Shown here: positions 679-62,836 of the stretch, piece by piece
Layout of the letters: each line of letters starts with the position of its first letter
Position numbering within the stretch: the first letter of the stretch is position 1
Assembly: GCF_001189915.1 (NCBI RefSeq)
Contig: NZ_LFLS01000029.1
Coordinates: 1-64,000 of the forward strand
DNA from: Herbaspirillum autotrophicum
GTDB taxonomy: Bacteria; Pseudomonadota; Gammaproteobacteria; Burkholderiales; Burkholderiaceae_D
Length of the DNA: 64,000 nucleotides
Direction of reading: 5' to 3'
Program-made: the position numbers and the translations under genes
The notes under the pieces: model-generated
Told to the model about the DNA's origin: nothing
The model's input: only the letters and a program-made list of their open reading frames with translations
The model's database searches: none

Positions 679-2242
679 GCGCGTGCTCCGCATCTGCCGC
701 GCCGGTTTGCCACAGCCCGCTCATCCACAGTCCGACCTGTTCGCGGGTGGCCTGTTCGATGGCAATCGATGGCGACAAGCGGCCTTTGGCGATCACGTGC
801 AAGCGGTCGCACAGCGCAAACAGTTCATCGAGTTCTTCGGAAATGATCAGAATTGCGCAGCCTTCCTGTTTGAGTGCCAGAATTTCGGCGTGGATCTGGG
901 CTGCGGCGCCGACATCGACGCCCCAGGTCGGTTGCGCCACCACGAATACCGATGGCTTGCGTTCCATTTCGCGGCCGACAATGAATTTCTGCAGATTGCC
1001 GCCGGACAGGCTCTTCGCCAATGCATCGGGACCGCTGGCCTTGACCTTGAAGCGGGCAATGATGCTGGCCGCCACCTTGCGGGCATAGGCGTGATCGATC
1101 AGACCGTATTTCACGTAGGGTGCTTTTTGATGCGAGAGCAGCATGTTGGCGCTCAGACTCAGGCCGGGAACCGCACCGCGCCCGAGTCGCTCTTCCGGCA
1201 CCAGTCCCAGACCCAGTGCGCGGCGTGGATTGGGTGCCAACTGGCCGGCGGCTTTACCCGCCAGCATGACCATGTTGGGCGCGGCGCGCTGATCTTCGCC
1301 TGAAAGCGCAGCCAGCAATTCCTGCTGACCATTGCCGGAGACGCCGGCAATACCGACGATTTCGCCGGCCCGCACTTCACATTCGATGTCATGCAATTCG
1401 GTCGCGAACAAATGCGCTTTGGGCAAAGACAAGCGGTTCAGGTGCAGCTTGCGTTCGTTGCGTTGCGATTCCGGATTGCGCTCCCGGTGCAGACGCACCA
1501 GTTCATCACCGATCATCATGCGCGACAGGCCGGCGCTGGTTTCGTTGCGCGGGTCGCAGTTGCCGGTAACGCGGCCGCCGCGCATGACGGTGGCGCTGTG
1601 GCACAGGGCGCGAATTTCATCAAGCTTGTGGCTGATGTACAAAATGCTGCAACCTTCGGCGGCCAGCTTGCGCAGCGTGACGAACAATTTTTCCACGGCC
1701 TGCGGGGTCAGCACGGAAGTCGGCTCGTCGAGAATCAGCAACTTCGGATTGGTCAACAGCGCGCGCACGATTTCCACGCGCTGCCGTTCGCCGACCGACA
1801 GCGTATGCACATGGCGTGTCGGTTCCAGTTCCAGACCATATTTCTCACCGGTCTGGCGAATGCGTGCGCTGAGATCGGCCAGATCGGTGTTGGCATCCAG
1901 GCCGAGGGCGATATTCTCCGCCACGGTCAAGGTATCGAACAGCGAAAAATGCTGAAACACCATGGCAATACCGAGCTTGCGCGCGACCTGCGGATTGCCG
2001 ATATGCACCACCTCGCCATTCCAGCGGATGTCGCCGGCATCGGGTTTGACGGTGCCGAAAATGATTTTCATCAGTGTCGATTTGCCGGCGCCGTTCTCGC
2101 CCAGCACGGCATGAATTTCGCCCGGCGCGACGCTCAGGTTGATATCGTCGTTGGCGAGTACCCCGGGATACGATTTGCTGATATGCGCTATTTCCAGTCG
2201 CGCGGCGGCAGCGGTCACATTGAGTCCTGTTCTTATTGGCAT
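671..2242 (-). CDS. Nucleoside/sugar-type ABC transporter ATPase with two ABC domains
   Basis: A 523-residue protein with two tandem ABC domains, as in RbsA, MglA and the nucleoside importer ATPases NupO/YufO. Domain 1 has an intact Walker A (GENGAGKST, residues 48-56), a signature LSVGERQ near 148 and a Walker B LLILDEPTS near 168. Domain 2 has the usual degenerate P-loop (GVSGNGQQE), signature LSGGNLQK and a Walker B with Gln (VVAQPTWGVD) in place of the common Glu-Pro. It powers import through the permease whose gene it overlaps by 8 bases. It lies 71 bases downstream of the second ABC transporter and may be co-transcribed with it. Nucleoside specificity is inferred from context. Confidence 0.9.
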   Translation of the reverse strand: MPIRTGLNVTAAAARLEIAHISKSYPGVLANDDINLSVAPGEIHAVLGENGAGKSTLMKIIFGTVKPDAGDIRWNGEVVHIGNPQVARKLGIAMVFQHFSLFDTLTVAENIALGLDANTDLADLSARIRQTGEKYGLELEPTRHVHTLSVGERQRVEIVRALLTNPKLLILDEPTSVLTPQAVEKLFVTLRKLAAEGCSILYISHKLDEIRALCHSATVMRGGRVTGNCDPRNETSAGLSRMMIGDELVRLHRERNPESQRNERKLHLNRLSLPKAHLFATELHDIECEVRAGEIVGIAGVSGNGQQELLAALSGEDQRAAPNMVMLAGKAAGQLAPNPRRALGLGLVPEERLGRGAVPGLSLSANMLLSHQKAPYVKYGLIDHAYARKVAASIIARFKVKASGPDALAKSLSGGNLQKFIVGREMERKPSVFVVAQPTWGVDVGAAAQIHAEILALKQEGCAILIISEELDELFALCDRLHVIAKGRLSPSIAIEQATREQVGLWMSGLWQTGAADAEHAHV

Positions 2243-2313
2243 GGTTGGTTGGAATCTACCATAGACGAATTGGCTTGAAACAGAAACTTTTTCATGGCGC
2301 GCGTCTATCGTGT

Positions 2314-3096
2314 CTATTTGCCACCGCCACCGCGGTGGGCCCAGCGCGTCGTCCGCTTTTCGACGATGGCGAACAGCTCATACATGAGCATCGCCATGGC
2401 GCCGATCACCACCAGACCGGCAAAGGCCAGCGGCATCTTCATTGAAGAACCGGCCGATACCAGCAGATAGCCGATGCCTTCATTGGAGGCGTTCATTTCC
2501 GAGACAGTGGAACCGACAAACGCCAGTGTGATGGCGACCTTGAGCGACGCAAAGAAATACGGCAGCGAACGCGGCAGGCCGACCTTGAGCAAAATATCCA
2601 TGCGCCTGGCGCCCAGCACCCGCAACACATCTTCCAGTTCCGGTTCGAGGGTGGCGAGGCCGGTGGCGATATTGACCATGATCGGGAAAAATGAAATCAG
2701 AAACGCGGTCAGGATCGCCGGCCCGGCGCCAATCCCGAACCAGACCACCAGCACCGGCACAAAGGCCGCCTTGGGCAAGGCATTGAAGGCGGTCATCAGC
2801 GGATAGACGGCGGCGTACAGCAAGGGCGAGGAGCCGATCAGAAAGCCGAGCGTGACGCCGACTGCCACGGCGATGGCAAAGCCGGTCATGGTGACCCAAA
2901 AGGTACTCAGGGCATGATGGGCAATCGGCCCGGAAAATTCGATCATGGCCTGGATGATTGCCAGCGGACTCGGGAAAATGAATTCTGATACTTGCAATGC
3001 GCTGCAAATGCATTGCCAGATCACCAGGGTCAGCAACAGCAATAACCACGGCGCGAGGGCAGTGGTGGCTTTATTGGGTTTACGGGTTTTTTTCAT
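2314..3096 (-). CDS. ABC transporter permease, NitT/TauT (SsuC/ThiX) type
   Basis: A 260-residue inner-membrane permease with about six membrane segments, starting with a hydrophobic helix at residues 15-34. The central stretch ALPKAAFVPVLVVWFGIGAGPAI and the later ALEDV-type loop are the EAA-like ATPase contact of the nitrate/taurine/THI5-associated BPD_transp_1 family. It starts 5 bases after the stop of its ATPase gene. With the two upstream genes it makes a complete binding-protein-dependent importer. Location beside allantoin, adenine and nucleoside genes suggests a purine or purine-derivative substrate rather than a thiamine precursor; that is inference. Confidence 0.88.
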   Translation of the reverse strand: MKKTRKPNKATTALAPWLLLLLTLVIWQCICSALQVSEFIFPSPLAIIQAMIEFSGPIAHHALSTFWVTMTGFAIAVAVGVTLGFLIGSSPLLYAAVYPLMTAFNALPKAAFVPVLVVWFGIGAGPAILTAFLISFFPIMVNIATGLATLEPELEDVLRVLGARRMDILLKVGLPRSLPYFFASLKVAITLAFVGSTVSEMNASNEGIGYLLVSAGSSMKMPLAFAGLVVIGAMAMLMYELFAIVEKRTTRWAHRGGGGK

Positions 3097-3101
3097 GGCA
3101 G

Positions 3102-3905
3102 TCAGGTATTGCGAACACGGCCGATATGCTCGCGCAGTTCATGGACGAGGGCATTGAACGGGTCGGTATAAGTCAGTTCCAGTTCGCGCGGACGCGGCAA
3201 CGGATTTTCCTTGCGCGCCACAATCCGGCCCGGGCGCTTGCTCATCACATAAATGGTATCGGCCAGAAATGCCGCTTCGCGCAAATCGTGGGTAACCAGA
3301 ATCACGTTGAAATGGCGTTCGGTCCACAGGTCGCGCAACACGCACCACAACTCTTCGCGCGTGAAGGCATCAAGTGCGCCGAAGGGCTCATCGAGCAGCA
3401 GCATCTTGGGCTCATGGATCAGCGCGCGGCAGATCGAGGCGCGTTGTTGCATCCCGCCCGATAGTTGCCACGGAAATTTATCGGCATAGCCATCCAGTCC
3501 CACGGTCTTGAGCAAGGCCAGCGCGCGTTGCGTATATTGCGCTTTATTTTTCTTGAAGTCGTGGCGATACGGTTCCACGATCTCCAGCGGCAGCAACACA
3601 TTTTCCAGCGTCGTGCGCCACGGCAGCAAGGTTGGCGCCTGAAATGCCATGCCGACGATCTTCAATGGTCCGGTGACTGCCGCGCCATCAATGGCAATGC
3701 TGCCGCGTGTAGGCCGGTTCAATCCGGTGGCCAGTTTCATGAAGGTTGACTTGCCACAGCCGGACGGACCGACGATGGCAATGAATTCACCCTGCCGGGT
3801 TTGCAGTGAAATGTCTTCCACGGCGAACGCGTCAGAGTCGTCATACGACAGGAAGACCCGCTGGAAATCGACGAAATGTCCGGAGCTGACGGCCGACACA
3901 CTCAT
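3102..3905 (-). CDS. ABC transporter ATPase, NitT/TauT type
   Basis: A 267-residue ABC ATPase of the SsuB/TauB/NrtD family. Walker A GPSGCGKST is at residues 46-54, the signature is LSGGMQQRASICRAL, and Walker B is MLLLDEPFGALD, followed by the switch His in LVTHDLREA. The ATG at 3905 overlaps the stop of the upstream binding-protein gene (ATGA), indicating translational coupling. It energises the permease encoded 5 bases downstream. Confidence 0.9.
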   Translation of the reverse strand: MSVSAVSSGHFVDFQRVFLSYDDSDAFAVEDISLQTRQGEFIAIVGPSGCGKSTFMKLATGLNRPTRGSIAIDGAAVTGPLKIVGMAFQAPTLLPWRTTLENVLLPLEIVEPYRHDFKKNKAQYTQRALALLKTVGLDGYADKFPWQLSGGMQQRASICRALIHEPKMLLLDEPFGALDAFTREELWCVLRDLWTERHFNVILVTHDLREAAFLADTIYVMSKRPGRIVARKENPLPRPRELELTYTDPFNALVHELREHIGRVRNT

Positions 3906-4927
3906 TTGGCAAACACGTTGAGTTCAGCCCTGGACGGCAGGAACGCCGGGTTCCAGATACCGTCGGCATTGACCCGGGTCTTGGTGCCATAGGCATCCGA
4001 GACTTGCGACGCCATCAAGGTCAGACGCGGCAGCAATACCTGACCATAACCCTCTGCCCTGGCATTGGGTGTGGCGATGGCGCTGCTGATGGCCAGCCTG
4101 AGACGACGCAGTTCCAGCTTTTCATCGATCAGACCATCACGTTCCTTGAGTACCTTGATGGCGGCTTCGGGATTGTTCAGAACATCTTTGGTGGCCTTGG
4201 CAAAGGCGCGCAAGAATCCTTTGATGGCTTCCGGGTTTTGCCGGATCAGATTATCCGAGGCGATGATGGTGTTGCCATACAGTTTGACGCCGTAGTCGGG
4301 ATACAGCATGACGTTGATGTCCTGATCCTTGATGCCGCGTGCATTCAGATTCAACAGCGAGGTAAAGTAAAAACCGGTAATGGCATCGACATCGCCGCGC
4401 GCCAGCATGGTTTCGCGCAATGGCGGGTCCATGCTGACCCAGTTGGCTTTGCCGGCATCGAGGCCATTGGCCTTGGCGAAGATCGGATAAGCACGGCGGC
4501 CGGCATCGAATACCGGAGCGCCGATTTTTTTGCCGGTCAGATCGGCCGGCGTCTTGATGCCGGATTTTTTCAGTGAGAAGACTGCGGCCGGGGTGTCGTT
4601 ATAGACCATCATGACCGCCACCGGCTTGCCCGGTGCGGTCGGATTGTTGGCGGTAAATTCCATCAGCGCCGCCATGTCGGCAAAGCCCATGTCATAGGTG
4701 CCTGATGCCACGCGGTTGACGGCGTTGCCGGAACCGTTACCGGCGTCAATCGTGACATCCAGCTTTTCCTGCGCAAAGTAGCCTTTCGATTTGGCGACCA
4801 GGAACAAGGCTGCCGGACCTTCGAAGCGCCAGTCGAGCTGGAACTTGATCCTGGTATCGGCGGCGAAGCCGGTGCTGCACACTGCGCCGAGCAGCAGTGC
4901 TGTGGTGATTTTGGAAAAGTACTGCAT
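3902..4927 (-). CDS. Periplasmic substrate-binding protein, THI5/NMT1-like
   Basis: A 341-residue protein with a signal peptide (about residues 1-22, ending GFAA) and the opening IKFQLDWRFEGPAALFLVAKSKGYFAQEKLDV, characteristic of the NMT1/THI5-like binding-protein family. Family members bind pyrimidine thiamine precursors, riboflavin, sulfonates, hydantoins or purine-related compounds. I see no TPP riboswitch (THI box) in the leader between 4928 and 5100, and the surrounding genes act on purines, so a purine-type ligand is more likely; this is inferred. First gene of an ABC operon (binding protein, ATPase, permease), with overlapping start and stop to the next gene. Confidence 0.85.
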   Translation of the reverse strand: MQYFSKITTALLLGAVCSTGFAADTRIKFQLDWRFEGPAALFLVAKSKGYFAQEKLDVTIDAGNGSGNAVNRVASGTYDMGFADMAALMEFTANNPTAPGKPVAVMMVYNDTPAAVFSLKKSGIKTPADLTGKKIGAPVFDAGRRAYPIFAKANGLDAGKANWVSMDPPLRETMLARGDVDAITGFYFTSLLNLNARGIKDQDINVMLYPDYGVKLYGNTIIASDNLIRQNPEAIKGFLRAFAKATKDVLNNPEAAIKVLKERDGLIDEKLELRRLRLAISSAIATPNARAEGYGQVLLPRLTLMASQVSDAYGTKTRVNADGIWNPAFLPSRAELNVFAK

Positions 4928-55434: not shown

Positions 55435-55908
55435 ATGATTGATTTCGAAAAGAAAATTTGTTCCCGCGCCACGTTGCAGGAACGCGTGGCGGCATTGCCG
55501 CAGCCGGTGGTGCTGACCAATGGCGTGTTCGATATTTTGCATCGCGGTCACGTGACGTATCTGGCGCAGGCGCGCGCCCAAGGCGCATCGCTGGTGGTGG
55601 CGGCCAATACCGATGCGTCCGTGCGGCGTCTGGGCAAGGGCGACGACCGGCCGATCAATACCTGTGAAGATCGCATGGCCGTGTTGGCCGCACTGGAGTC
55701 GGTATCGCTGGTGGTGCCGTTTGATGAAGACACGGCACTGGAAGTGGTGCAGGAAGCGCAACCGCAGATTTACGTCAAGGGCGGTGATTACGACATGACG
55801 GCGATTCCCGAAGGACAGGCCGTGGCGGCGTATGGCGGACAGGCGATTGCGATTGCATTCGAGCATGACCGTTCCACCACCAAGTTGCTGGCCAAGGTCA
55901 GGAAGTAA
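55435..55908 (+). CDS. rfaE2: D-glycero-beta-D-manno-heptose 1-phosphate adenylyltransferase
   Basis: A 157-residue nucleotidyltransferase corresponding to the C-terminal domain of HldE. Motifs are VVLTNGVFDILHRGHVTYLAQAR with HxGH, VVAANTDASVRRLGKGDDRPINTCEDRMAVLAALE and YVKGGDYD. It makes ADP-heptose for LPS inner core. In betaproteobacteria the kinase and adenylyltransferase are separate genes; the kinase is not in this window. The start lies 12 bases after the upstream T-run. Confidence 0.94.
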   Translation: MIDFEKKICSRATLQERVAALPQPVVLTNGVFDILHRGHVTYLAQARAQGASLVVAANTDASVRRLGKGDDRPINTCEDRMAVLAALESVSLVVPFDEDTALEVVQEAQPQIYVKGGDYDMTAIPEGQAVAAYGGQAIAIAFEHDRSTTKLLAKVRK

Positions 55909-55931
55909 TCGCGATCGGTATGCAAGGAATG

Positions 55932-55976
55932 CGCAGGCAATAAAAAAGCGGACACGCCGCTTTTTTATTGCCTGCG
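55932..55976. terminator. Bidirectional terminator, 20-bp perfect stem
   Basis: Arms at 55932-55951 and 55957-55976 pair without mismatch around loop ACACG; the stem core is AAAAAAGCGG/CCGCTTTTTT. It lies between the convergent rfaE2 and copper chaperone genes. Confidence 0.9.
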
Positions 55977-55986
55977 AAACTTGCGC

Positions 55987-56463
55987 TCAATGATGCATGT
56001 GTTCGTCGGTCTTGCCGGCGGTCTTGTCTTCCACATTGACGGTGACATCCACCTTGCCTGCCTTTTCAAAGGTCAGCGTCATTGGCACCTTGTCGCCGGC
56101 TTTCAATTGCTGGGTCAGGCCGATCATCATGATGTGATAGCCGTTGCCCGGCTGCATCGCGATTTTTTCTGCCGGCTTGATTTCAATGCTGCCGACTTCC
56201 CGCATTTTCATGACATTGCCATCCATCGACATGGTGTGGATTTCTGTCGACCTAGCGGCTGGCGAGGCGACCCCGATCAGTTTGTCGGCGCTTTTGCCCT
56301 TGTTTTCAATGCTCAGGTAAGCACCACCCGATGGCTGGCCGGGTACGGTAGCGCGTGCATAAGGGTGGCCGATCAACAGATCGCCGAGTTTGTATTCATG
56401 AGCGCTGGCGGCAGCGCTCAGCAGCAGGGCGGCGCTGAGGCCGAGAATGTGACGGAGAGACAT
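55987..56463 (-). CDS. PCu(A)C-family periplasmic copper chaperone
   Basis: A 158-residue exported protein with signal peptide (about 1-21, AAASA) and the copper motif H(M)x10Mx21HxM: HTMSMDGNVMKMREVG followed by GNGYHIMMIGL. The extra Met/His residues and the His-rich end (TDEHMHH) fit Cu(I)/Cu(II) delivery to cytochrome oxidase. A DUF2946 gene lies 34 bases upstream on the same strand, a common pairing. Confidence 0.9.
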   Translation of the reverse strand: MSLRHILGLSAALLLSAAASAHEYKLGDLLIGHPYARATVPGQPSGGAYLSIENKGKSADKLIGVASPAARSTEIHTMSMDGNVMKMREVGSIEIKPAEKIAMQPGNGYHIMMIGLTQQLKAGDKVPMTLTFEKAGKVDVTVNVEDKTAGKTDEHMHH

Positions 56464-56497
56464 AAGAATCCTTTGAATTGCTTTGCGTTAAACGGTA

Positions 56498-56866
56498 TCA
56501 GGCGGTGTGACAGGCATGCAGCATCAGCGCGGGCGGTGCGCGCGCCTGAGCGTCCGCGCGTTGTACGCTTGATGCAGCATACTCCTGGTTGGCCGTCGGG
56601 CTGATCCTGACCGTCAGGTCCGGGATCAGTAATTGCTGGTGACTGGGTAGGCCCGGCAGCGGCTGGTTGCCGGCGTGGCAATACTGGCAATGACTTGCCG
56701 ACAGGGAATAAGGGCCATGTCCGCCGGCCGGGGGGGGGGCACTGGTGCTGCAAATAGCCATGGCTGCCACGTCAGTACCAGCTTGCGCAGCCGGCGGCAA
56801 GACCATGTTGGCAAAAATGCCGAACAGGGCGAGGCGGGCAAAGAATAGGCGGAGTGTGAGTGACAT
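56498..56866 (-). CDS. DUF2946 family protein with C10 tract
   Basis: A 122-residue protein with an N-terminal membrane segment (MSLTLRLFFARLALFGIFANMVLPPAAQA, about 5-28) and the DUF2946 cysteine motif HCQYCHAG (about residues 59-66). Such proteins usually sit beside copper chaperones and are thought to take part in metal handling, without proven function. A run of ten C on the coding strand (56730-56739) encodes the APPPA stretch; a one-base change there would truncate the protein. Confidence 0.78.
   Translation of the reverse strand: MSLTLRLFFARLALFGIFANMVLPPAAQAGTDVAAMAICSTSAPPPAGGHGPYSLSASHCQYCHAGNQPLPGLPSHQQLLIPDLTVRISPTANQEYAASSVQRADAQARAPPALMLHACHTA
56730..56739. repeat. Homopolymer G10/C10
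   Basis: Ten G in a row on the plus strand within the DUF2946 coding region. Such tracts are prone to slippage or to sequencing error. Confidence 0.95.
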
Positions 56867-56954
56867 GGCGGCTGGATTATAGCAATTGCACCCGGCGTGA
56901 TGAAAAAAGCCGCGGCGGTGAAATATCTCAGTTGGCAGCGATCACGGCCCGTTA

Positions 56955-56977
56955 AGCGTTATTGGTCAAATAACGCT
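56955..56977. promoter_or_regulatory. Inverted repeat upstream of ABC operon
   Basis: AGCGTTATT (56955-56963) and AATAACGCT (56969-56977), a perfect 9-bp inverted repeat with spacer GGTCA and no T-run, 159 bases before the first binding-protein gene. Could be an operator or an RNA hairpin. Confidence 0.45.
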
Positions 56978-57135
56978 GAAGATAATGAGTTTTGAATGAT
57001 ATAAGCAGATAAATGACGGTTTCGGGCCGGCTGGCGGCGACCGCGGGAATATATCTATCAAATTGATTGTTGGCAGGCCGTAGGCTAGACTTGTCGTCTT
57101 TTGCTGGCATCCACAAAATTTAGAGGGAGACTTTC

Positions 57136-58113
57136 ATGTTCGATATGAAAAAATTGTCGTTGCGGACCATGGTGAGCGTGTTGTCGCTGGCGGCTGTTTG
57201 TGCTGCGCCGGCCATGGCTGCCGACAAATCAGTTGCGGTTACCGCCATCGTCGAACATCCGGCACTGGATGCGATCCGGGACGGCGTCAAGGATGAACTC
57301 AAGGCTGAAGGTTTCGAGGCCGGCAAGAATCTCAAGTGGGAATATCAAAGCGCGCAGGGCAATACGGGCACAGCCGCGCAGATCGCCCGCAAGTTCGTTG
57401 GCGACAAGCCGGATGTGATCGTGGCCATTGCCACACCGTCGGCACAGGCACTGGTGGCATCCACCAAAACTATTCCTGTCGTGTATTCCGGCGTTACCGA
57501 TCCGATCGCAGCGCAACTGGTCAAGGACTGGAAAGCATCGGGCGGCAACGTGACCGGTGTCTCCGATCTGCTGGAACTGGAAAAGCAGGTTGACCTGATT
57601 AAGCGCATCATCCCTGGCGTCAAGCGCGTCGGCATGGTGTACAACCCGGGTGAAGCCAATTCTGCCGTGGTGGTCAAGAGCCTCAAGGAATTGCTGTCGA
57701 AGTCGGGTATCTCGCTGGTGGAAGCCGCAGCACCGCGCACGGTGGACGTTGGCTCCGCAGCCAAGAGTCTGATCGGCAAGGTCGACGTGATCTATACCAA
57801 TACTGATAACAATGTGGTGTCGGCTTATGAGTCGCTGGTCAAGGTCGGCAACGATGCCAAGATTCCGCTGATCGCTTCCGATACCGACAGCGTCAAGCGC
57901 GGCGCGATTGCTGCTCTGGGTGTCAATTACTACGATCTGGGTCGTCAGACCGGCAAGGTGGTGGCGCGTATCCTCAAGGGCGAAAAGCCTGGTGATATCG
58001 CTTCGGCCACCAGCAGCAAGCTGGAACTGTTCGTCAATACGACAGCCGCACAAAAGCAAGGCGTGACGTTGTCGGCTGACCTGATCAAATCGGCAAAAAC
58101 AGTCATCAAATAA
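57136..58113 (+). CDS. ABC substrate-binding protein, COG2984 (TrpX-like), copy 1
   Basis: A 325-residue periplasmic protein with signal peptide (about 1-29, APAMAAD) and the ABC_sub_bind fold: IVEHPALDAIRDGVKDELKAEGFEAGKNLKWEYQSAQGN, DVIVAIATPSAQALVASTKTIPVVYSGVTDP and LIASDTDSVKRGAIAALGVNYYDLGRQTGKVVARIL. A GGGAGA site precedes the ATG at 57136. First gene of a four-gene operon. TrpX homologues in streptococci take part in tryptophan uptake; the ligand here is not established. Confidence 0.9.
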   Translation: MFDMKKLSLRTMVSVLSLAAVCAAPAMAADKSVAVTAIVEHPALDAIRDGVKDELKAEGFEAGKNLKWEYQSAQGNTGTAAQIARKFVGDKPDVIVAIATPSAQALVASTKTIPVVYSGVTDPIAAQLVKDWKASGGNVTGVSDLLELEKQVDLIKRIIPGVKRVGMVYNPGEANSAVVVKSLKELLSKSGISLVEAAAPRTVDVGSAAKSLIGKVDVIYTNTDNNVVSAYESLVKVGNDAKIPLIASDTDSVKRGAIAALGVNYYDLGRQTGKVVARILKGEKPGDIASATSSKLELFVNTTAAQKQGVTLSADLIKSAKTVIK

Positions 58114-58170
58114 TTTTTCATTCACATGCAGGCGCCCGCACCGAGGCGCCGATACCTTTCGGGAGAGACA

Positions 58171-59145
58171 ATGTTTACATTAAGCAAATCCTTGCGCGCC
58201 GTTGCTGGTGCGCTGGCACTGGCAACCATCTGCGCGGCACCGGTGCTGGCCGCCGACAAGACGGTTCTGGTGACTTCGATCGTCGAACATCCGGCATTGG
58301 ATGCGGTGCGTGACGGTACCAAGGATGAATTGAAGGCTGAGGGTTTCGAAGCCGGCAAGAACCTGAAATGGGAATTCCAGAGCGCGCAAGGCAATGCCGG
58401 TACGGCCGGACAAATTGCCCGCAAATTCGTGGGTGACAATCCGGACGTGATCGTGGCTATCGCCACGCCGTCGGCGCAGCCACTGGTTGCCGCGACCAAG
58501 ACCATTCCTATCGTGTATTCCGCGATTGCCGATCCGATTGCCGCGCAACTGGTGAAAGACTGGGCGCCGTCAGGCACCAACGTCACCGGTCTGTCGCACA
58601 TGCTGGATCCGAGCAAGCAAGTTGAAATCCTCAAGAAAGTGGTGCCGGGTGTCAAGCGCGTCGGTATCGTTTACAATCCGGGCGAAGCCAATTCCGTGTC
58701 GGCATTGAACAGCATCAAGGCCGTACTGGAAAAACAGGGCATCAAGCTGGTGGAAGCTGCGGCACCACGCTCGGTCGATGTGTCGCCTGCTGCCAAGAGT
58801 CTGATCGGCAAGGTTGATGCAATCTACAGCACCACTGATAACAACGTGGTGTCGACCTATGAAGCCTTGGTAAAGGTGTGCAATGATGCGAAAATTCCGC
58901 TGATTGCTTCCGATACCGACAGCGTCAAGCGCGGTGCGATTGCGGCGTTGGGCGTCAACTTCTATGACCTGGGACGTCAGACCGGTAAAGTCGTGGCGCG
59001 TATTCTGCGCGGTGAAAAGCCGGGCGATATCCCATCGTCGACCAGCAAGAATCTGGAATTGTTCGTCAATACTGCCGCTGCGCAAAAACAGGGTGTCACC
59101 CTGTCGCCTGAATTCGTAAAATCGGCGACCAAGGTGTTCAACTGA
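58171..59145 (+). CDS. ABC substrate-binding protein, COG2984 (TrpX-like), copy 2
   Basis: A 324-residue tandem paralogue of the preceding gene, sharing most of its sequence (for example IVEHPALDAVRDGTKDELKAEGFEAGKNLKWEFQSAQGN). Differences cluster in the middle (AIADPIAAQLVKDWAPSGTNVTGLSHMLDPSKQVEILKKVVPGVKRVG versus the copy 1 equivalent), where ligand or partner contacts may differ. Signal peptide ends APVLAAD. The ATG at 58171 follows GGGAGAG; the 58126 alternative is upstream of that site. Confidence 0.9.
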   Translation: MFTLSKSLRAVAGALALATICAAPVLAADKTVLVTSIVEHPALDAVRDGTKDELKAEGFEAGKNLKWEFQSAQGNAGTAGQIARKFVGDNPDVIVAIATPSAQPLVAATKTIPIVYSAIADPIAAQLVKDWAPSGTNVTGLSHMLDPSKQVEILKKVVPGVKRVGIVYNPGEANSVSALNSIKAVLEKQGIKLVEAAAPRSVDVSPAAKSLIGKVDAIYSTTDNNVVSTYEALVKVCNDAKIPLIASDTDSVKRGAIAALGVNFYDLGRQTGKVVARILRGEKPGDIPSSTSKNLELFVNTAAAQKQGVTLSPEFVKSATKVFN

Positions 59146-59213
59146 TTTCAGTGCCGCAGTATTGAAACAGGGGCTGGCGTGTTATCAGCGCGCCAGTCCG
59201 TGATTTTCAAAAG

Positions 59214-59257
59214 ACATTCGGCATCGGCGTATCGCGCTGATGCCGAATGTGTTTTTT
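59214..59257 (+). terminator. Intra-operon terminator between binding proteins and permease
   Basis: ACATTCGGCATC (59214-59225) pairs perfectly with GATGCCGAATGT (59239-59250), followed by G and TTTTTT (59252-59257). It is only 15 bases before the permease start, so it should limit readthrough into the permease and ATPase genes. Confidence 0.75.
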
Positions 59258-59271
59258 AAGAAAGACCGAAT

Positions 59272-60168
59272 ATGTCGTTGTATACGCTATGGGGGGCCTT
59301 GGAAATCGGTTTGATTTTCAGCCTGGTGGCCCTCGGAGTGCTGATTTCATTCCGCATCCTTACCTTCCCCGATTTGACCGTCGATGGCAGCTTCCCGTTG
59401 GGTGGCGCAGTTGCCGCGACCATGATTGCGGCCGGCTATGATCCGTTTCTGTCTACCGGTGTGGCGATTCTGGCGGGCGCGCTGGCGGGTTTCATCACTG
59501 CATGGCTGAACGTGCGCCTGAAGATCATGGACTTGCTGTCCAGTATTCTGGTGATGATTGCGCTGTACTCGATCAATTTGCGCGTCATGGGCAAGCCCAA
59601 TGTGCCGCTGATCAACGAGCCGACCATTTTCAGCATGTTGCAGCCGACCTGGATTCCTGATTACGTCGAACGGCCGCTGGTGTTGCTGGTGGTGGTGATC
59701 GCCGCCAAGCTGTTGCTGGACTGGTTCTTTTCTTCCGAAGTCGGTCTGGCCATGCGTGCGACCGGCGCCAATGCGCGTATGGCGCGGGCGCAAGGAATTG
59801 CCACCGGCACCGCGACGCTGGCCGGCATGGCGCTGGCCAATGCGCTGGTGGCTCTGGGCGGCGCCTTGTTTGCGCAGACGCAGGGCGGTGCAGATATTTC
59901 CATGGGTATCGGTACCATCGTCATCGGTCTGGCAGCGGTGATCATTGGCGAGAGCATTCTGCCGGCGCGGCGTCTGGTATGGACGACGCTGGCGGTGATT
60001 CTGGGCGCGATTTTGTATCGTTTCTTCATTGCGCTGGCACTCAACAGCGACTTCATCGGATTGCAAGCGCAGGATTTGAATCTGGTGACTGCGGTATTGG
60101 TGATGCTGGCGCTGGTGCTGCCGATGGGCAAGCGCAAGTTGCAAATGCGCAGAAACGGAGGGAATTGA
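59272..60168 (+). CDS. ABC transporter permease, COG4120 type
   Basis: A 298-residue inner-membrane protein of the BPD_transp_2 family with about eight hydrophobic segments. Features: TFPDLTVDGSFPLGGAVAATMIAAGYDP, VGLAMRATGANARMARAQGIATGTATLAGMALANALVALGGALFAQTQGGADISMGIGTIVIGLAAVIIGE. It stands 126 bases after the second binding-protein gene and 1 base before the ATPase gene. Confidence 0.9.
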   Translation: MSLYTLWGALEIGLIFSLVALGVLISFRILTFPDLTVDGSFPLGGAVAATMIAAGYDPFLSTGVAILAGALAGFITAWLNVRLKIMDLLSSILVMIALYSINLRVMGKPNVPLINEPTIFSMLQPTWIPDYVERPLVLLVVVIAAKLLLDWFFSSEVGLAMRATGANARMARAQGIATGTATLAGMALANALVALGGALFAQTQGGADISMGIGTIVIGLAAVIIGESILPARRLVWTTLAVILGAILYRFFIALALNSDFIGLQAQDLNLVTAVLVMLALVLPMGKRKLQMRRNGGN

Positions 60169-60169
60169 G

Positions 60170-60964
60170 ATGTTGATTGCCAAAGACTTGCACATCACGT
60201 TCAATCCCGGTACGCCCATCGAGAACCGCGCTTTGCGCGGCATGGAGCTGGAAATTCCGAACGGCCAGTTCGTGGCCGTGATCGGTTCCAACGGCGCCGG
60301 CAAATCCACTTTTCTGAATGCGATCTCCGGTGACTTGCTGGTAGATCAGGGCAAGATCGAAATCGACGGTGTCGATGTCACCCGCAAGCAAGCCTGGGAT
60401 CGGGCCGGGATGGTGGCGCGGGTGTTTCAGGATCCAATGGCCGGTACCTGTGAAGCGCTGACGATTGAAGAAAACATGGCGCTGGCGATGGCGCGCGGCA
60501 AGCGCCGTGGTTTTGGTTTCGCCATCAAGCGCAATATGCGCGAGCTGTTCCGTGAAAAGCTGGCGATTCTCAATCTGGGCCTGGAAAAGCGCCTGACCGA
60601 CCGCATCGGTCTGTTGTCGGGCGGCCAGCGGCAAGCGGTCAGTCTGTTGATGGCGTCGTTGCAGCCGTCACGCATTTTGCTGCTTGACGAACATACTGCT
60701 GCGCTCGATCCGAAGACGGCGGCATTCGTGCTGGAGCTGACGGCCAAGATCGTCAAGGACAGCAAGCTGACGACCATGATGGTGACGCACAGCATGCGGC
60801 AGGCGCTCGATTACGGTGACCGTACCGTGATGCTGCACCAGGGCAAGGTGGTGCTGGACGTGTCCGGCGAAGAACGTGCCGGTCTGGATGTGCCTGATCT
60901 GTTGAAGATGTTCGAACGCACGCGCGGTGAGGTATTGTCGGATGATGCGCTGCTGCTCGGATGA
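60170..60964 (+). CDS. ABC transporter ATPase, COG1101 type
   Basis: A 264-residue ATPase with Walker A GSNGAGKST (residues 39-47), signature LLSGGQRQAVSLLMA and Walker B ILLLDEHTAALDPKTA. His in place of the usual Pro after the catalytic Glu is characteristic of this subfamily. Switch His in MVTHSMRQAL. Completes the importer with the permease and one or both tandem binding proteins. Confidence 0.92.
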   Translation: MLIAKDLHITFNPGTPIENRALRGMELEIPNGQFVAVIGSNGAGKSTFLNAISGDLLVDQGKIEIDGVDVTRKQAWDRAGMVARVFQDPMAGTCEALTIEENMALAMARGKRRGFGFAIKRNMRELFREKLAILNLGLEKRLTDRIGLLSGGQRQAVSLLMASLQPSRILLLDEHTAALDPKTAAFVLELTAKIVKDSKLTTMMVTHSMRQALDYGDRTVMLHQGKVVLDVSGEERAGLDVPDLLKMFERTRGEVLSDDALLLG

Positions 60965-60981
60965 GGCTGGCAGTGTGTCGT

Positions 60982-61008
60982 AAAAAGGTCGCGTATGCGG
61001 CCTTTTTT
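60982..61008 (+). terminator. Terminator after ABC operon
   Basis: AAAAAGGTCGC (60982-60992), GTAT loop, GCGGCCTTTTTT (60997-61008), with one T-G wobble. Confidence 0.8.
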
Positions 61009-61033
61009 ATTATTCGCGAAAAGAGAGGGAGCC

Positions 61034-61579
61034 ATGAAGCGTAGCCTGATGCTGGCGGCTGGTTTGTATTTTTGCGGGCTGACTGCTTGCTTTGCGCAAA
61101 CCGCGTTGCCGATGTTGCTGGCGGCGTCGCGCTCGGCGATTGCGGCACAAGAGCGGGTGCAGGCTGAGGCGGTACGCATTTTCACACTGCAAAAGCAGGC
61201 TATCGGCAGCAATCTGACGCGCGCGCAGGCAGTGCAACTGAGATTGACGACGAACCAAGTGATGCCGGTCGGCCTGGCCCGGGTCCGTTATCCCAGAGGG
61301 GCGCGAGATCGCGGGGAGGAAGGGCGAGTGCTGCTCAAGATGGTCATTGATCAGCACGGGCAGGTCGCGACGGTGCGGGTAGTGGAATCATCCGGTCACG
61401 CCGAGCTGGATATCGAAGCGCAACGCGCAATCTGGAGATCGGCTTACCAACCCTATCTCGAGAACGGCAAAGCAATTTCGGTAGCGGCGCAGCAGCAAAT
61501 CATCTTCAAACTCAAGCGTGATGAGCCAGACGCCCCGGCTGTTGCGCCGGAAGCGGACAAGCGGGGCGCGGGCGACTGA
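61034..61579 (+). CDS. TonB C-terminal domain protein
   Basis: A 181-residue exported protein (signal peptide about 1-22, TACFAQ) with a helical middle (about 28-70) and a TonB-like C-terminal domain: YPRGARDRGEEGRVLLKMVIDQHGQVATVRVVESSGHAELDIEAQRAIWRSAYQPYLENGKAI. It lacks the N-terminal anchor helix and Pro-rich stalk of TonB itself, so it is probably a periplasmic TonB-domain protein of unknown role. The GGGA site supports the ATG at 61034. Convergent and directly abutting the trmL stop. Confidence 0.8.
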   Translation: MKRSLMLAAGLYFCGLTACFAQTALPMLLAASRSAIAAQERVQAEAVRIFTLQKQAIGSNLTRAQAVQLRLTTNQVMPVGLARVRYPRGARDRGEEGRVLLKMVIDQHGQVATVRVVESSGHAELDIEAQRAIWRSAYQPYLENGKAISVAAQQQIIFKLKRDEPDAPAVAPEADKRGAGD

Positions 61580-62062
61580 TCAGCTGCCGCCGGCGAAGCC
61601 GTTCTGGCGCCAGGCCTCGTACACCACTACCGCCACCGTATTGGACAGATTCAGGCTGCGGTTGTCGGGGCGCATTGGCAGGCGAATACGTTGTGTAGTC
61701 GGAAAGGACTCGCGCAATTCCGGTGCCAGTCCCCGGGTTTCCGAGCCGAATACGAATACATCGCCGGGCTGAAAGCTGATACCGGCAAATGGCGTCGAGC
61801 CGTGAGTCGTGAGCGCGAACATGCGGTCAGCGCTGAATTGCGGATCAGCGCGTCGCTGGTCCATGAAGGCATTCCAGTCGGAGTGGACCTGCATGTTGGC
61901 GTAATCGTGATAATCGAGGCCGGCGCGCCGCATCTTGGCGTCGTCGAGCGGGAAGCCGAGCGGTTCGATCAAATGCAACTGGGCGCCGGTGTTGGCGCAC
62001 AAGCGAATGATATTGCCGGTATTCGGCGGGATTTCCGGTTCGACCAAGACGACGTGAAACAA
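61580..62062 (-). CDS. trmL: tRNA (cytidine(34)-2'-O)-methyltransferase
   Basis: A 160-residue SPOUT methyltransferase that modifies the wobble base of tRNA-Leu. Motifs: VLVEPEIPPNTGNIIRLCANTGAQLHLIEPLGFPLDD, FVFGSETRGLAPEL and IRLPMRPDNRSLNLSNTVAVVVYEAWRQ, which includes the knot-forming SAM site. 27 bases downstream of the comF-like gene on the same strand, so probably co-transcribed. Confidence 0.95.
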   Translation of the reverse strand: MFHVVLVEPEIPPNTGNIIRLCANTGAQLHLIEPLGFPLDDAKMRRAGLDYHDYANMQVHSDWNAFMDQRRADPQFSADRMFALTTHGSTPFAGISFQPGDVFVFGSETRGLAPELRESFPTTQRIRLPMRPDNRSLNLSNTVAVVVYEAWRQNGFAGGS

Positions 62063-62089
62063 GTGATTCTCCTGAGCAGACTTCGATTT

Positions 62090-62836
62090 TCAGTGCGCAA
62101 GGGTACGCGCAAATACCAGATTCGTCACGCTGCGTGCGCCGAACCGCTTCAACGTTGCGGCCAGTTCATCCAGTGTCGCGCCGCTGGTCATGACATCGTC
62201 AACCACGCCGATATGCTGTCCGCGCACTTTCAGCAAAGCGTCGTGCGGGACCACGAAGGCCCGTCGCATGTTGTGGCGGCGTTGCGCCAGCGGCAACGTG
62301 GATTGTGCCTGGGTTTCGCTGACCCGTTCCAGCAGGCGGGGTTCGAGCCGGATTCCGAGCAGCGCCGATAGCGGCCTGGCAATTTCGAGTGCCTGATTGA
62401 AGCCGCGCGCCTGCAGTCGTTGTGGTCCCAGTGGTACGGCGGTCAGCAGCGTCGGTTGCGATCTGGCCGTGAATTTGCGCGCGCGGTCCACCCGTTCATG
62501 GAGCAGTTGCGCCAACAGCGGCGCCAGCGTCAGTGTGGCGTTGAATTTCAGCGCCATGACCAGTTGATCGGCCGGTGCCACGTAATCGGTGGCGACGATG
62601 GTGGCATCGAAGGCGGGTTTGCGTTTGATGCAGTCGCCGCAGTGTGCCGTGCTGAGTGTCGTCGGCATGGCGCATTGCAGGCAGCGGTGCGGCTGCACGT
62701 GAAAATAGCGCTGACGGCAGTCGCGGCACAATCCGTGCGGTCCGCTTTGCTGGCACAAGGCGCAGGAAGACGGCAGCAGTTGCGGCAACTGGCGCAACGA
62801 ACGGCGGATCAGGTCTGACAAATATGCAGCCATCAA
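62090..62836 (-). CDS. ComF-family phosphoribosyltransferase-like protein
   Basis: A 248-residue protein. An N-terminal four-Cys zinc site (CALCQQSGPHGLCRDC, and CLQCAMP) precedes a phosphoribosyltransferase fold with the PRPP loop VGVVDDVMTSGATLDELAATLKRFGA. Central motifs: ALKFNATLTLAPLLA, AVPLGPQRLQARGFNQALEIARPLS. ComF proteins assist uptake or processing of transforming DNA; the type IV pilus genes in this window are compatible with that. Divergent from bioC. Confidence 0.9.
   Translation of the reverse strand: MMAAYLSDLIRRSLRQLPQLLPSSCALCQQSGPHGLCRDCRQRYFHVQPHRCLQCAMPTTLSTAHCGDCIKRKPAFDATIVATDYVAPADQLVMALKFNATLTLAPLLAQLLHERVDRARKFTARSQPTLLTAVPLGPQRLQARGFNQALEIARPLSALLGIRLEPRLLERVSETQAQSTLPLAQRRHNMRRAFVVPHDALLKVRGQHIGVVDDVMTSGATLDELAATLKRFGARSVTNLVFARTLAH

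Follow-up and report, generated by a model that had tools for sequence, protein, structure and literature searches.

In cellulolytic Clostridia, intrinsic internal terminators have been shown 3′ of the genes for solute-binding proteins (SBPs), and the SBP transcripts exceed those of the translocator, according to PMC9045158. A different arrangement is described for the malE-malF intergenic region, where an RNA structure protects the SBP mRNA after cleavage and raises its level (PMC5927463). Pairs of binding proteins are also known: in Escherichia coli, LivJ and LivK are alternative partners of one membrane complex, LivHMGF (PMC7373191). For the TrpX-type SBPs (PF04392), the structures 3lkv, 6hni, and 3lft hold phenylalanine, tyrosine, and tryptophan, respectively (PMC6816091).

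The importer operon considered here, from Herbaspirillum autotrophicum, touches all of these cases. It occupies positions 57136–60964 of a 64,000-nt window (positions 1 to 64,000 of contig NZ_LFLS01000029.1, assembly GCF_001189915.1), in which two similar TrpX-type SBP genes, BP1 and BP2, precede a long hairpin with a T-run and the genes for a permease and an ATPase. A conserved RNA stop signal probably keeps the channel scarcer than the binding proteins. The whole proposal, to which a probability of about two in three is assigned, is that internal termination leaves the SBPs in excess of the channel, that BP1 would bind tyrosine or phenylalanine and BP2 a related aromatic compound, and that both would deliver to one shared permease. 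Among the papers listed in searches of the open-licence literature, none dealt with this operon or with what PF04392 proteins bind in betaproteobacteria.

Layout of the operon and its internal stem-loops

All four genes are read in one direction on the + strand: BP1 (57136..58113), BP2 (58171..59145), the permease (59272..60168), and the ATP-binding protein (60170..60964), with Pfam assignments in the order ABC_sub_bind, ABC_sub_bind, BPD_transp_2, and ABC_tran. For BP2 the list of open reading frames (ORFs) gives a start at 58126; position 58171 was adopted because it is preceded by GGGAGAG and preserves the signal peptide. BP1 and BP2 are 75.6% identical across 324 amino acids and score 390.3 and 359.4 bits against PF04392 (cut-off 25.9). 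The permease has its best named matches in Herbaspirillum records, at 93–94%, and is the single match of its type in the genome at E 1e-60. The first-pass annotation had pointed out two similar, “TrpX-like” binding proteins and a hairpin with six T ahead of the permease, and both observations are confirmed here. The label holds for the family, but tryptophan as the ligand is not supported: BP1 and BP2 reach 281.6 and 262.6 bits in the NCBIfam TrpX model (NF041285, tryptophan SBP), below its equivalog cut-off of 390, and neither has the tryptophan-type Gln described below.

The BP2-permease gap is 126 nt long and, on the + strand, folds into three stem-loops (z −7.49 for the whole gap), the first two of which were absent from the first-pass annotation. 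Stem-loop 1 lies at 59146..59167, as predicted by folding, and stem-loop 2, GC-rich and with a weak T-tail, at about 59171..59199, as given by a terminator scan and folding. Stem-loop 3 (59214..59250), the putative internal terminator stem, has arms at 59214–59225 and 59239–59250 that form 12 perfect pairs, and the stem extends to 17 pairs closed by a 3-nt loop. Six T (59252..59257) begin one base past it, and the permease ATG is found at 59272, 14 nt beyond the T-run. The predicted folding energy is −32.3 kcal/mol (z −8.05), equalled by none of 200 shuffles. As terminator-like sites in 55500–62500 number eight and are not above shuffles (7.2, sd 2.7), stem-loop 3 stands out by its length and stability, not by site count. 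The structural features of an internal terminator downstream of an SBP gene, a stable stem and a U-rich tract between the SBP and translocator genes, are thus present.

A dispersed repeat or REP-like element is ruled out, since the exact pattern with 10-nt arms has one match in the 6.0-Mb assembly; with 7-nt arms there are 13 matches, where a reversed-pattern control gives 3, and on visual inspection the stem does not continue in most of the others. A known RNA element was likewise rejected, as no Rfam family reached its gathering score and the one sub-threshold match has 27.1 against 50 bits.

Upstream of BP1, alignment revealed a conserved sigma-70-like promoter element, TTGATT-17-TAGACT, at 57063..57091 on the + strand. 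Within the 300 nt 5′ of BP1 that were compared, TTGATTGTT and GCTAGACTT, with the hexamers 17 nt apart, are retained in 14 of 14 aligned regions, at least one genome being present twice (L036 and L125). The element has 8 of 12 consensus matches, under the scan threshold of 9, and hence does not appear in the scan list. A separate permease promoter was sought in the BP2-permease gap, and the scan gives none there; the 14 nt from the T-run to the permease start leave no room for one, and therefore permease transcripts must pass through the stems. A promoter candidate inside BP2 (59093–59122) is at chance level (4 found, shuffle mean 2.6) and, even if real, is still upstream of the stems and would need read-through.

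In the proposed mechanism, the operon would be a single transcription unit starting from the element at 57063–57091, with both SBP genes transcribed. Most transcripts would end at stem-loop 3 and a minority would read through into the permease and ATPase genes, leaving the SBPs in excess of the channel; the upstream stem-loops probably also shield the 3′ end of the short mRNA. The earlier expectation of more binding protein than channel thereby gains sequence support from the promoter-like element before BP1 and from the conserved hairpin and T-run, besides the precedent described in PMC9045158. Furthermore, a short stem-loop in the BP1-BP2 gap (8 pairs, −12.3 kcal/mol, approximately 58131..58150 on the + strand, placed by eye on the fold) suggests a graded output, BP1 > BP2 > permease.

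The stem-loop in relatives

A strong stem is present in 29 of 29 distinct gaps of loci with two SBP copies. When one locus (L083) is left out, a T-run of 6–8 T follows in 27 of 28 gaps and 4 T in the remaining one, 26 of the 28 having been counted computationally and two, L015 and L118, by eye. Counted from the gap folds, 26 of 29 distinct two-copy gaps have 5 or more T among 8; here the rule of taking the last hairpin put the stem in the wrong place in L003, L005, and L033, and inspection of the gap sequences shows their T-runs. A strict perfect-stem terminator scan, positive in 9 of 29 two-copy and 19 of 81 single-copy rows (duplicates included), overlooks bulged stems, and folds were used instead.

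Among 16 distinct Herbaspirillum stems, 95.1% of cells are paired and 5 of 16 pairs have changed on both sides, each value being reached by 0 of 500 shuffles, which ignore the relatedness of the sequences. The covariation sits in the upper stem, which changes freely together with the loop, and in the lower stem 8 of 10 pairs are invariant and the other two depart once each. The 3′ arm, TGCCGAATGT, is exact in 26 of the 28 distinct two-copy gaps; L015 is one base off, and L118 (genome G258) has other arms. These 26 gaps were chosen by their 3′ arm, so that the zero differences in that arm are by construction; their 5′ arms are identical in 23 and differ by one base in 3. As a yardstick, pairwise comparison of the BP2 fourfold sites from these 26 shows a difference in 16055 of 49156 cases (32.7%), and of 105 fourfold columns 10 do not vary. 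Because pairing alone would permit compensatory changes, the lower-stem sequence itself seems constrained. The exact two-arm pattern hits 23 of the 34 genus genomes; in some of the others the upper stem is longer than the pattern permits. The pattern also matches in one genome of another genus (G115).

The near-constant lower stem raises the question whether this is more than a fixed attenuator. A protein or an RNA might recognize the lower stem and set the read-through into the permease gene; such a regulated attenuator would fit arms that are kept in nearly all two-copy gaps and are unique in the genome, beside few constant fourfold columns and a freely varying upper stem and loop. Against it, the 3′-arm invariance among the 26 gaps follows from their selection, the arms of L118 are different and weaker and are followed by six T, and the exact pattern occurs in about two-thirds of the genus genomes. 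No Rfam family matched at its gathering score, with no systematic search for antiterminators having been made, and a tuned termination efficiency could equally hold the sequence. Regulation of this kind is regarded as quite improbable.

Another possibility, unlikely but better placed than a regulated attenuator, is that the stem-loops serve in 3′ protection rather than termination: an RNase would cut in the permease region, and the stems would shield the SBP mRNA as in malE-malF, the precedent described in PMC5927463. Indeed, strong stems occur in single-copy relatives as well, in 12 of 12 distinct gaps of genus g28 and 62 of 68 other distinct gaps, mostly lacking a T-run, and the window gap holds two stems besides stem-loop 3. 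What protection leaves unaccounted for is the persistence of 6–8 T in 27 of 28 two-copy gaps, while BP2 fourfold sites differ in nearly a third of comparisons.

Termination as the preferred reading has to be set against several observations that speak the other way. At least 5 T of 8 follow the stem in only 19 of the 68 other and 2 of the 12 g28 single-copy gaps, and in such relatives the stem would have another action; in L083, which was treated separately, just 3 T follow the stem; and one covariation measure, that of further pair types, was matched by 64 of 500 shuffles. Judged from the gap sequences, the stem element is general among relatives, and the terminator is one of its forms.

A few features lie beside these. 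The BP1-BP2 gap (58114–58170 in the window) contains a stem-loop in most of the two-copy genomes listed as well, with a T-run visible by eye in some, for example L004 and L033. The operon is closed by a terminator-like stem-loop found by the terminator scan (60982..61007, +; 11 pairs, then TATTATT), which is overlapped by an ORF for a protein with a TonB C-terminal domain (60995–61579, PF03544). The sub-threshold Rfam match mentioned above, Atu_C8, spans 60904–61019 over the end of the ATPase gene and this terminator and is probably due to chance. Ahead of the operon, a run of ten G (56730–56739) within a small reverse-strand ORF (56498–56866) is a possible slippage site.

The duplicated binding proteins and their ligand sites

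Comparison with relatives, the check proposed in the first-pass annotation, indicates that the duplication is old. At a threshold of E 1e-60, two SBP matches and one permease match come up in all but one of the 34 genomes of the genus, and in 30 of these 33 the SBP genes are adjacent; the remaining genome, G317 (820 contigs), has neither an SBP nor a permease match at that threshold. In a wider family search (SBP match at 1e-20), 35 of 245 genomes were positive, 18 of this genus with two SBPs and the other 17 with one. BP2 sequences cluster with the BP2-only rows with support of 100/100 in two trees. BP1 sequences lie on short branches near single-copy proteins of Burkholderiaceae and Alcaligenaceae, with their deepest branches unresolved, and BP2 is therefore taken as the diverged copy. 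Median dN/dS values of 0.074 for BP1 (343 pairs) and 0.093 for BP2 (352 pairs), with no internal stop in 29 distinct copy pairs, indicate that both are under purifying selection and rule out the decay of one copy. Rows set apart or dropped are L002 (same place as L001), L074, L083/L119 (one metagenome-assembled genome, its BP1 cut by the contig end), and L076 (a contig without SBP). In L074 (Corticimicrobacter populi, 1982–3985) an independent tandem SBP duplication was seen, with Thr, Asp, and Tyr in both copies and a 12-nt gap to the permease; its second copy falls outside the BP2 group in trees.

Ligand-site positions were transferred by alignment, with spacing checked, from the CD0873 family (Ala246/Glu263 and Tyr262/Gln284; PMC6816091) and from Streptococcus suis TrpX (Thr108, Ala127, Thr129, Asp152, and Asn233; PMC9382623). 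At the positions of Thr129, Asp152, and Tyr262, all 37 BP1 rows show Thr, Asp, and Tyr, and all 37 BP2 rows, together with all 5 BP2-only rows, show Ala, His, and Phe; these rows are not all independent, since some genomes are present both under a genome handle and as a named contig. The BP1 set recurs in every one of the 67 other single-copy rows and the 12 g28 rows, and three rows linked to 4-hydroxyphenylpyruvate dioxygenase (HPPD) have Thr (two) or Ser (one), Asp, and Tyr. The second copy of L083/L119 has Ala, Asn, and Phe. In the window, the canonical residues of BP1 are T121, D144, D249, and Y265, and BP2 has A120, H143, and F264 with D248 retained. Of the five S. suis residues described in PMC9382623, BP1 keeps four, the window copy having Gly119 in place of Ala; in BP2, Thr99, Ala118, and Asn224 are retained, and the second Thr and the Asp are replaced by Ala120 and His143.

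Glu263 of CD0873 bonds the tyrosine hydroxyl (PMC6816091), and every aligned row except the two references, BP1 and BP2 included, has Asp there, acidic but with a shorter side chain. The tryptophan-type Gln of SP1069, at the Tyr262 position of VC_1101, is not present: BP1 has Tyr and BP2 Phe. The BP2 model (pLDDT 89.5) is closest to 3lkv, 6hni, and 3lft (Z 43.6, 40.8, and 39.7), and the first structure outside the family follows at 21.4. BP2 would have arisen by an old tandem duplication, keeping the fold and altering three ligand-site residues, and its ligand is probably a different but related aromatic compound.

A second explanation, less likely though the nearest contender, is that BP2 binds the amino acid of BP1 with another affinity, the duplication serving dosage or dynamic range. 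The retained fold and much of the pocket, with the Asp at the tyrosine-hydroxyl position, would agree with this, and SBP pairs with overlapping ligands are known, such as LivJ and LivK (PMC7373191). Such a conservative role sits poorly with three ligand-site positions that have changed together and are fixed in all 42 BP2-type rows, and with the position of the Asp-to-His change being Asp in BP1, single-copy, g28, and HPPD-linked rows (Asn in the second copy of L083/L119). Going further than the preferred reading, BP2 may no longer recognize a free amino acid, with Thr and Asp changed to Ala and His, and may bind aromatics that are deaminated or altered in another way, such as 4-hydroxyphenylpyruvate, phenyllactate, or plant phenolic acids, and pass them to the channel used by BP1 for tyrosine/phenylalanine; this is a speculative and rather doubtful idea, and if true, one importer would serve two chemical classes. 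The BP2 group offers a natural test of ligand change within this fold.

Gene neighbourhoods, the shared permease and known systems

Gene neighbourhoods in relatives point to tyrosine and phenylalanine. In g28, the operon consists of a divergent Lrp/AsnC-type gene, an SBP, the permease, the ATPase, a gene of the Glu/Leu/Phe/Val-dehydrogenase family, and HPPD; the last two are present in 6 of 6 extended loci, their family assignments being made on one locus, and the Lrp-type gene in all 12 short loci. Furthermore, in three genomes of the genus with diverged copies (G292, G297, and G312), a lone BP2-type SBP gene precedes the permease gene, from which it is separated by 52, 44, and 13 nt that form no strong hairpin; a canonical SBP gene stands elsewhere, followed in all three by genes for HPPD and phenylalanine 4-monooxygenase (phenylalanine hydroxylase, PAH), with another gene between in G297 (L112 4338–7977, L113 4159–9240, and L114 1–2820). 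This stand-alone SBP clusters with the g28 SBPs (97/83), and a divergent Lrp-type regulator lies beside it in L112 and L113; L114 starts inside the SBP gene. BP1 is taken as the ancestral type; given these links, it most likely binds tyrosine and/or phenylalanine, and BP2 would bind a related ligand. For betaproteobacterial PF04392 importers, the links provide a direct ligand hypothesis.

Some evidence runs counter to these ligand assignments. The HPPD link comes from another genus and from the three genomes with diverged copies, not from the window operon; in the window genome HPPD is on another contig, with no SBP in the 16 kb examined there. In g24, the Lrp-type gene is found at one of two loci and HPPD at neither, and no HPPD, PAH, or Lrp-type gene was found within the sequence examined at 80 named loci. 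No shared aromatic pathway was seen near Burkholderia, Cupriavidus, Bordetella, Alcaligenaceae, and Pseudomonas-type loci and one g24 locus, in checks of two partly overlapping sets of 10 ORFs, several of which had no family match and might not be real genes. In addition, a Streptococcus pyogenes homologue described in PMC9382623 has Asn at the Asp position, and therefore a substitution at this position does not have to imply a new ligand class.

At E 1e-60, 33 of the 34 genus genomes have two SBPs and a single matching permease. Each of the 33 has one canonical and one BP2-type SBP (Ala/Asn/Phe in G327, Ala/His/Phe elsewhere), in tandem or apart, and no second permease of the type was found at 1e-60 in G292, G297, or G312. 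The simplest reading is that BP1 and BP2 both deliver to the same permease, and the three genomes whose canonical SBP is encoded away from the sole matching permease provide a natural test of this. The earlier suggestion that a pair of binding proteins could broaden the range of ligands finds indirect support in the three fixed changes of BP2, the purifying selection on both copies, and the one permease of this type per genome; we infer that the ligand of BP2 differs from that of BP1.

Compared with described systems, the arrangement belongs to known kinds, namely internal SBP terminators, SBP pairs, and stem protection. As in the Clostridia of PMC9045158, the SBP gene is at the 5′ end and the gap has a stem-loop with a U-rich tail; unlike there, the host is a betaproteobacterium with two SBP genes, the lower-stem sequence is kept in most of the genus, and termination is predicted from sequence. 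With malE-malF it shares an RNA structure between the SBP and permease genes, although what is described there is protection after cleavage, not termination (PMC5927463). Like LivJ and LivK (PMC7373191), two SBPs would serve one membrane complex, but they are of another SBP family, in tandem, and before a terminator-like hairpin. With CD0873, VC_1101, and SP1069, the TrpX-type proteins of PMC6816091 and PMC9382623, the family, the fold (Z 40–44 for BP2), and most ligand-site residues of BP1 are shared; unlike in these, Asp replaces Glu or Ala at the side-chain selectivity position, and BP2 is without the conserved Thr, Asp, and Tyr. Clostridioides difficile likewise encodes a second SBP close by, CD0876, but this one has an ATPase gene of its own, CD0877. 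Among the papers listed in the open-licence searches, none was seen to describe a BP2 group with an altered site, an HPPD-linked stand-alone SBP, or a sequence-constrained stem of this sort. The finding holds up; it is conserved and for the most part falls within known kinds, with BP2 as a testable extension.

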